This document shows, piece after piece, positions 141 through 37,420 of a stretch of 64,000 nucleotides of DNA (positions are counted from its first letter, which is position 1; each line of letters begins with the position of its first letter). A program made the position numbers and the translations under genes. This stretch comes from Bacteroidetes bacterium SB0662_bin_6 (GTDB lineage: Bacteria > Bacteroidota > Rhodothermia > Rhodothermales > VXPQ01): contig VXPQ01000011.1 of assembly GCA_009839485.1 (NCBI GenBank), positions 1 through 64,000 on the forward strand, read 5' to 3'. The notes beneath the pieces are model-generated. The model did no database searches. It worked only from the letters and a program-made list of their open reading frames with translations, and was not told where the DNA came from.

Positions 141-161
141 GGAATCACCGGGTACTACAAA

Positions 162-417
162 GGGATACTCTGATCAAAACCACTTCGCTCAGCGCTTCAC
201 GTTCGCGCGTAAAGGATATCATGATTCCATCGTTGAAATCGGCTGAAAACATTGTGGTTCCAGAGCGCCGCGGACGTGAAGCGCCCTTCGGGAGGCTGCG
301 AGGGGTGCGCTGGCCGTGTCATTCCTCATTATGTGGGGCCTGCCACATTGCTTCGTCATTCCTTGCCAGCGCACCCCTCGCAGCCTCTGAGCTTTGTGGA
401 CCTAATCAGAGTATCCC
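162..417. mobile_element. MITE-like element with terminal and nested inverted repeats
   Basis: Both ends carry a 15-bp terminal inverted repeat, GGGATACTCTGATCA on the left and TAATCAGAGTATCCC on the right (14 of 15 pairs match). Two more inverted repeats are nested inside: an 11-bp pair (192-202 with 274-284) and a perfect 23-bp pair (292-314 with 365-387). A short ATGTGG/CCACAT hairpin sits in the central loop. No transposase is encoded. Related copies lie at 36408-36487 and 37354-37420. The ends abut a TGA stop on one side and the antiporter 5' end on the other. No target-site duplication is clear. Confidence 0.7.
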
Positions 418-428
418 AAGGCGATCGA

Positions 429-36407: not shown

Positions 36408-36487
36408 AAGGATACTCTGATTAAGTCCGCAAAACTCAGAGGCTGAAAGGGGTGCGCTGGCAAGGAATGACGAAACAGTGTGGCAGG
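36408..36487 (+). repeat. Truncated copy of the MITE-like repeat
   Basis: Matches the right half of the 162-417 element in reverse orientation, from AAGGATACTCTGATTAAG to TGTGGCAGG. It has one terminal repeat and no partner at the other end. It ends 3 bp before the stop codon of the methyltransferase gene, so it may contribute to transcript termination. Confidence 0.65.
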
Positions 36488-36489
36488 GC

Positions 36490-37278
36490 TTACGCCGTCC
36501 GCGCCCAGGCGTGCAGCAGGATGCCCGCAGCAACCGCCGCATTCAGCGACTCGACGCCTTGCGCTCCCGGTTTTTCATTCCTGTGCATCCGGCCGGGAAT
36601 GAGCACCCGCTCGGCGATCCGCACCCGAACCTCCGGAGAAATTCCGTGCGCCTCGCTGCCGAGCACCAGAACGGACGGCAGCACCGGTGTCCAGTCATCC
36701 ACCGGAATGCCCTCGAGGTCCGCGCCGTAGACGGCGAATCCGTACGCCGTGAGATTCTCAAGCATCCCGGCCGGATCGGGCGTTTCGACATGCTCGACAT
36801 CCCATACCCCACCCATGGAGGCGCGCACGACCTTCGGGTGGTACGCATCCACGGAATCCGGAGCAGTTACCACGGCCTCAATGCCAAACCAGGCCGCTGT
36901 CCGGATGATAGCCCCCGCATTCCCCGGATCGCTCACGCCGTCGAGCAATAGCACCCGCTGCATGGATGCGAGCGTCTCCGGCGCCGCCCGCCGGATGCCC
37001 GCGACCGCCAGCACGCCCTGGCTGGTTTCGACCGCGGATACCGTGCGCATATCCCGTTCGGACACGACATATACCCGGTCCTCCGGAATACGGAACCGTT
37101 CCGCAAGGCGGCCCTGCGCCGATTCCGATACGAGTAGCGTCCGCAGTTCGGCCCCCGCGTCGAGGGCCGCTTCTACGGCCCGTACACCTTCAGCAATCGT
37201 TTCCCCGTACCGGTCGCGGTACTTTCTGTGAGCCAGCGAGCGGATTTCTTTCAGGCGGCGTTGGGGAAGACGGGTCAT
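36490..37278 (-). CDS. SpoU/TrmH-family RNA 2'-O-methyltransferase
   Basis: 262 residues. N-terminal substrate-binding domain (R-R-L-K-E-I-R-S-L-A-H-R-K-Y, V-E-T-S-Q-G-V) and C-terminal SPOUT domain with L-D-G-V-S-D-P-G-N-A-G-A-I-I-R-T (motif 1), V-L-G-S-E-A-H-G-I (motif 2) and S-L-N-A-A-V-A-A-G-I (motif 3). Between I-P-G and S-L-N there is an insertion of about 10 residues (R-M-H-R-N-E-K-P-G-A) that typical SpoU proteins lack. It should methylate rRNA or tRNA with S-adenosylmethionine; the target is not assignable. It is flanked on both sides by copies of the MITE-like repeat. Confidence 0.9.
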   Translation of the reverse strand: MTRLPQRRLKEIRSLAHRKYRDRYGETIAEGVRAVEAALDAGAELRTLLVSESAQGRLAERFRIPEDRVYVVSERDMRTVSAVETSQGVLAVAGIRRAAPETLASMQRVLLLDGVSDPGNAGAIIRTAAWFGIEAVVTAPDSVDAYHPKVVRASMGGVWDVEHVETPDPAGMLENLTAYGFAVYGADLEGIPVDDWTPVLPSVLVLGSEAHGISPEVRVRIAERVLIPGRMHRNEKPGAQGVESLNAAVAAGILLHAWARTA

Positions 37279-37353
37279 GGGTACAGTGCGGATGGGGCCG
37301 CGCATGTTTTCGTGGGAAAGTAAAGATACAATGCGCACGCATGCATCCTTCTT

Positions 37354-37420
37354 AAGGATACTCTGATTAAGTCCGCAAAGCTCAGAGGCTGAGAGGGGTG
37401 GTTTTGATCAGAGTATCCTT
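37354..37420. mobile_element. 67-bp deletion derivative of the MITE-like element
   Basis: Terminal inverted repeats AAGGATACTCTGAT and ATCAGAGTATCCTT are perfect over 14 bp. The interior keeps only about 40 bp, including the CTCAGAGGCTGAG hairpin. Compared with the 256-bp element, the central 190 bp are missing. It lies between the divergently transcribed methyltransferase and amidohydrolase genes. Confidence 0.7.

Follow-up and report, generated by a model that had tools for sequence, protein, structure and literature searches.

Among the systems described so far, IS5 of E. coli duplicates 4 bp of its target, of the form C(A/T)A(G/A), for instance CTAA (PMC11677980). Prokaryotic MITEs measure less than 500 bp, carry TIRs of about 4-30 bp, and their flanking direct repeats wane with age (PMC10969869). 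In addition, template switching within hairpins makes the arms of inverted repeats match (PMC8794818).

Here we analysed a repeat element that lies at the beginning of a 64,000-nucleotide stretch (the window) of the genome of Bacteroidetes bacterium SB0662_bin_6, and which a first-pass annotation had taken for either a MITE, a structured RNA or a multi-copy terminator. Its copy number, two conserved ends, 4-bp duplications, empty sites and a parent family with the same (IS5) ends support the first of these three options. Taken as a whole, we are highly confident that an IS5-type MITE inserting at AT-rich 4-bp targets is the best explanation. The element is of an ordinary kind, save for the complementary bases found just beyond its ends. 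It adds a high-copy IS5-type MITE, whose probable parent is nearly extinct, to a poorly studied genus of the Rhodothermales.

The element, its copies and its short forms

The element had been placed at 162-417 with 15-bp terminal repeats. The inverted ends are real, matching each other at 13 of 14 positions, but the true extent is 163-416 (Table 1), and the mutually complementary G162 and C417 belong to the flanks. Similarly, the 11-bp inner pair reported at 192-202/274-284 is present but sits within a longer pair (192-207/269-284, 15/16); a blastn search of the window with the element recovered this pair together with the perfect 23-bp pair at 292-314/365-387 that had also been described. As already noted from the sequence, no transposase is encoded: the 254-bp element contains no transposase ORF.

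Table 1. Positions of the element, its parts and its further copies within the window
Feature	Positions	Strand	Remarks
Full-length MITE copy	163-416	+	254 bp; its left end is A, its right end B
Terminal inverted repeat, A end, GGATACTCTGATCA	163-176	+	C type; related IS5 elements have it at their far end
Terminal inverted repeat, B end, GGATACTCTGATTA	403-416	-	T type; related IS5 elements have it at their transposase-start end
Inner inverted repeat 1, left arm	192-207	+	Partner 269-284, 15/16
Inner inverted repeat 1, right arm	269-284	-	Partner 192-207
Inner inverted repeat 2, left arm	292-314	+	23 bp; perfect in the window copy
Inner inverted repeat 2, right arm	365-387	-	Partner 292-314, 23/23
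Left flank AAAG, candidate 4-bp target duplication	159-162	+	3/4 identical to right flank
Right flank CAAG, candidate 4-bp target duplication	417-420	+	3/4 identical to left flank
Cut-down copy, B end only	36410-36487	-	Element positions 178-255, 91%
63-bp miniature derivative, both ends, flanks TTAA and TTTT	37356-37418	-	Complete

The two partial copies announced at 36408-36487 and 37354-37420 were found again at 36410-36487 and 37356-37418, the second being a complete 63-bp miniature. The first matches the element with an E of 2e-26 (blastn within the window). A SpoU/TrmH-type rRNA methylase gene (36490-37338, minus strand) borders on it with its 3' end; the miniature lies upstream of the same gene, which therefore has element derivatives on both sides, one of them cut off at its stop codon.

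Searching the window's own genome (2.92 Mb in 69 contigs) by blastn yielded 64 matches, comprising 7 full-length copies, several of about 187 bp from which element positions 54-113 are missing, and numerous fragments, and the 14-bp end occurred 130 times with at most one mismatch, against none for a reversed control pattern; the repeat is indeed dispersed. Across the six genomes of the genus, all of them metagenome-assembled, counts of ends, on which the copy numbers rest, were 130, 132, 131, 173, 416 and 362; with 131-416 ends, a genome of 2.7-3.0 Mb has up to about 200 copies. The outcome named beforehand as speaking against a dispersed element, namely no further copies or relatives, is contradicted, since the element is present in the other five genomes of the genus as well. 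At E 1e-6, a further 54 genomes of the order gave no match. When a named genome collection was searched with a 19-base end pattern, nearly all contigs among the matches listed bore Rhodothermales titles. Also among the matches listed were single exact hits in three contigs titled Burkholderiaceae, Clostridiales and Anaerolinea (L121, L150 and L159), which may reflect chance, contamination or a wider spread.

Both ends are conserved between copies, the lack of which had been proposed as evidence against such an element. Columns of the 12-bp end were more than 90% conserved in 82 copies, a figure biased upward because the copy list is a sample drawn from searches and loci and picked partly by this very end. 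Copies lie mostly between genes, and insertion polymorphism exists between related genomes. Short derivatives that keep both ends include seven of 36-37 bp, three of 63 bp and others; a deletion between the subterminal TCAG and the terminal TCAGAG can explain the 37-bp forms. At one further locus (L146:6036-7084), a likely toxin-antitoxin pair, recognised by eye as a FitA-like antitoxin with a PIN-domain toxin, is flanked by a MITE end and by a partial MITE; its composite mobilisation is conceivable but unproven.

Target sites and a probable IS5-family parent

The suggested search for target-site duplications revealed a 4-bp signature. After removal of related loci, exact 4-bp duplications flanked 27 of 101 distinct loci, with 6.3 expected and a maximum of 14 in 2000 shuffles; an earlier set of 130 copies had given 33 exact 4-bp flank repeats against 8.8 expected (maximum 16 in 500 shuffles). 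In a position matrix, the flank identity signal peaked solely at the 4-bp register. Duplicated targets comprised the YTAR-like TTAA, CTAA and TTAG as well as TATA, TAAA, TACA and TGCA, and an exact duplication is kept in only about one quarter of the copies, the window copy retaining three of the four bases. Four clear empty sites, at orthologous loci in other species, contained the 4 bp once: TTAA (L076/L136), TATA (L086/L031), TGCA (L107/L138) and TGTA (L114/L151). Of these, the L086 insertion is a 37-bp derivative, with L031 as its matching empty TATA site.

A parent transposase with the same ends, which the first-pass annotation had proposed to look for, was found in broken form only. A PF01609 search of the genus disclosed broken transposase genes in one species (G004), and the exact 14-bp terminal repeat (GGATACTCTGATCAATCCGG) stands at their downstream end; the protein fragments match PF01609 and DUF772 as well as NCBIfam NF033581 (IS5 family), and one deleted copy of 666 bp (L213) retains both ends. 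The window's own genome (G000) gave no PF01609 match, and no intact transposase with MITE ends was found in the genus, where broken copies were confined to one of the six genomes. Absence of an intact transposase is common for old MITEs and does not bear on membership in the class.

Related IS5 elements with ends of the GGAnnnTCTGAT form were present in other genera of the order (L216, L223 and L220). L216 measures 1369 bp and has an open frame of 329 aa, and L223 measures 1169 bp and is flanked on either side by CTAA; ends similar to those of the MITE were seen in two genomes (G029 and G066). These elements carry GATTWA at one end and GATCAA at the other, and the MITE has the same left/right asymmetry, with GATTAA at its B end and GATCAA at its A end. 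Its interior is absent from the IS copies found, and since only about 14-16 bp are shared, the MITE did not arise from those copies by simple internal deletion.

As no intact transposase with these ends is found in the genus, mobilisation by an IS5-family enzyme is something we infer; the element was very probably once moved by such a transposase. The enzyme would recognise two asymmetric ends, GGATACTCTGATTAAGTCC and GGATACTCTGATCAAAACC, and would place the element mainly in intergenic sequence, at 4-bp targets rich in A and T (TTAA, TATA, YTAR-like), whose 4 bp become duplicated. Its supply would now be mostly gone, as suggested by the exclusively broken copies in a single genome out of six.

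Other candidates for a parent were discarded. An IS701-type DDE_5 transposase (PF13546) had no match in the genus, and three long end-to-end pairs considered as autonomous transposons (L143 3904-5830, L161 251-2180 and L196 486-3214) proved to be ordinary genes between unrelated ends. IS5-like elements with GGGCCTGTTAACACTA-type ends (L207, L208, L211 and L214) were likewise rejected, their ends differing from those of the MITE. This further IS5-like element, unrelated to the first and ending in GGGCCTGTTAACACTA or a similar sequence, was also seen at L022:1473, L031:117 and L038:1501, and GGGCCTGTTAACACTA-type sequence sits inserted at TA inside MITE ends.

Stem pairing and position relative to genes

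Folding the element with a covariance check, as had been recommended, showed that its stems covary, but gave no support to a structured RNA. Such a reading holds that the element is transcribed and that its multi-stem fold is the selected function, and it can draw on 268 double-changed stem cells in 82 copies against 141 in shuffles, on 86% of stem cells being paired compared with 35-47% when slid, and on the retention of a fold by RNAalifold. However, departures from pairing were G-U-dominant at 26 pairs and A-C-dominant at 31 (p 0.6), and because single-sided departures are A-C as often as G-U, pairing appears to be kept at the DNA level, or on both strands alike. Furthermore, the element had no Rfam match at the gathering threshold, copies are cut down in various ways, and complementarity reaches flank bases that differ between copies. 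We thus regard a selected RNA function as very improbable. Covariation of stems is by itself not proof of a functional RNA, and here the mismatch spectrum points to DNA.

The third option holds that the element terminates transcription in many copies, or stabilises mRNA ends, and that it spread through its usefulness at gene ends. It would fit the mostly intergenic copies, which are often near a gene end (median 14.5 bp to the neighbouring 3' end), and the window copy itself, which lies 12 bp past the stop codon of an AhpC/TSA-family gene. However, by rough codon-usage gene calls, 38 copies lay between tandem, 17 between divergent and 6 between convergent genes, against 223, 62 and 52 element-free gaps, respectively; the convergent share (6/61 versus 52/337) displays none of the excess that a two-sided terminator predicts. 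Moreover, the stem is followed by TTAA/TATA-type duplications instead of a T run. Lacking enrichment between convergent genes, the terminator option finds no support, and we give it scarcely any credence.

Complementary bases beyond the ends

The MITE departs from the ordinary in its flanks. Positions -1/+1 were complementary in 88 of 101 loci (62 expected; maximum 72 in 2000 shuffles) and -2/+2 in 76 (39 expected; maximum 53), while -3/+3 (45, with 37 expected) and -4/+4 (52, with 52 expected) stayed inside the shuffle range; complementarity was inner-only in 45 loci and outer-only in 3. Broken duplications retained it as well, in 70 of 79 at -1/+1 and in 58 of 79 at -2/+2. A preference for palindromic targets was rejected as the sole cause, since it would touch -3/+3 and -4/+4 equally and would fail in broken duplications.

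Where one half of the duplication was intact, the altered half was complementary to the copy's own target in 17 of 19 and 17 of 25 cases, respectively (10.8 and 5.1 in shuffles), and 30 loci bore the exact rewriting signature against 10.9 in shuffles (maximum 24). Comparison with empty sites agreed with this in part: the target TGTA of L114 has become TGTA on one side and TATA on the other, and three copies (L201, L084 and L090) have the predicted inner bases alongside other differences, whereas another (L101) fits at a single base only, and L069 instead has added bases, with an extra TA by an intact TTTA in one copy.

The inner inverted repeats would let the DNA fold back, and hairpin-templated correction (quasi-palindrome, template-switch) is the simplest means by which the stems and the two outer base pairs may be kept complementary. 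We give roughly even chances to flank complementarity having arisen by such correction of DNA. That a fold-back moreover rewrites the target duplications, turning the inner two bases of one side into the complement of those of the other so that the terminal hairpin extends into the flank, is a tentative proposal that we hold with some doubt. Alternatively, the complementary inner flanks could stem from a transposition step, in which 2 nt of donor flank are carried along at each end or the paired ends are repaired jointly. The confinement of complementarity to about two base pairs, the alteration of both duplication halves in 35 of 108 copies, explicable by donor carry-over, and the extra TA of the L069 copy are in line with such a step, but an altered half that complements the copy's own target is unexpected of donor bases, and we consider this origin rather unlikely. 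Hairpin template-switch correction is favoured, though the data do not decide.

At one shared locus (L067, L077 and L068, near 1501-1755), two species have ACCTATACTT as the right flank and another has ATATAGGTACTT, which looks like the inversion of a short segment next to the base of the hairpin.

To our knowledge, repair of this kind at insertion has not been described for IS5-type elements. If true and occurring at insertion, the rewriting would represent a repair route new for these elements; if true and occurring later, it would document template-switch correction in bacteria cleanly and in a natural setting. The copies of the element, which number in the hundreds, form together with their relatives and the empty sites a natural data set on how inverted repeats keep their arms matched and on why target duplications seem lost.

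With the IS5 family (NF033581; E. coli IS5), the MITE shares the terminal repeat (exact over 14 bp in G004), its asymmetry and the 4-bp YTAR-type duplication, whereas it is devoid of a transposase and has no interior in common with the IS copies found. It resembles other prokaryotic MITEs in size, ends, duplications, intergenic sites and copy number, but unlike these generally, it has complementary inner flanks, perfect inner inverted repeats and derivatives down to 36-37 bp. Finally, the matching of arms by copying the other arm, with double substitutions, is reminiscent of quasi-palindrome or template-switch correction (PMC8794818, PMC7202029), which, in contrast to the known cases, is proposed here to rewrite target-site duplications too.
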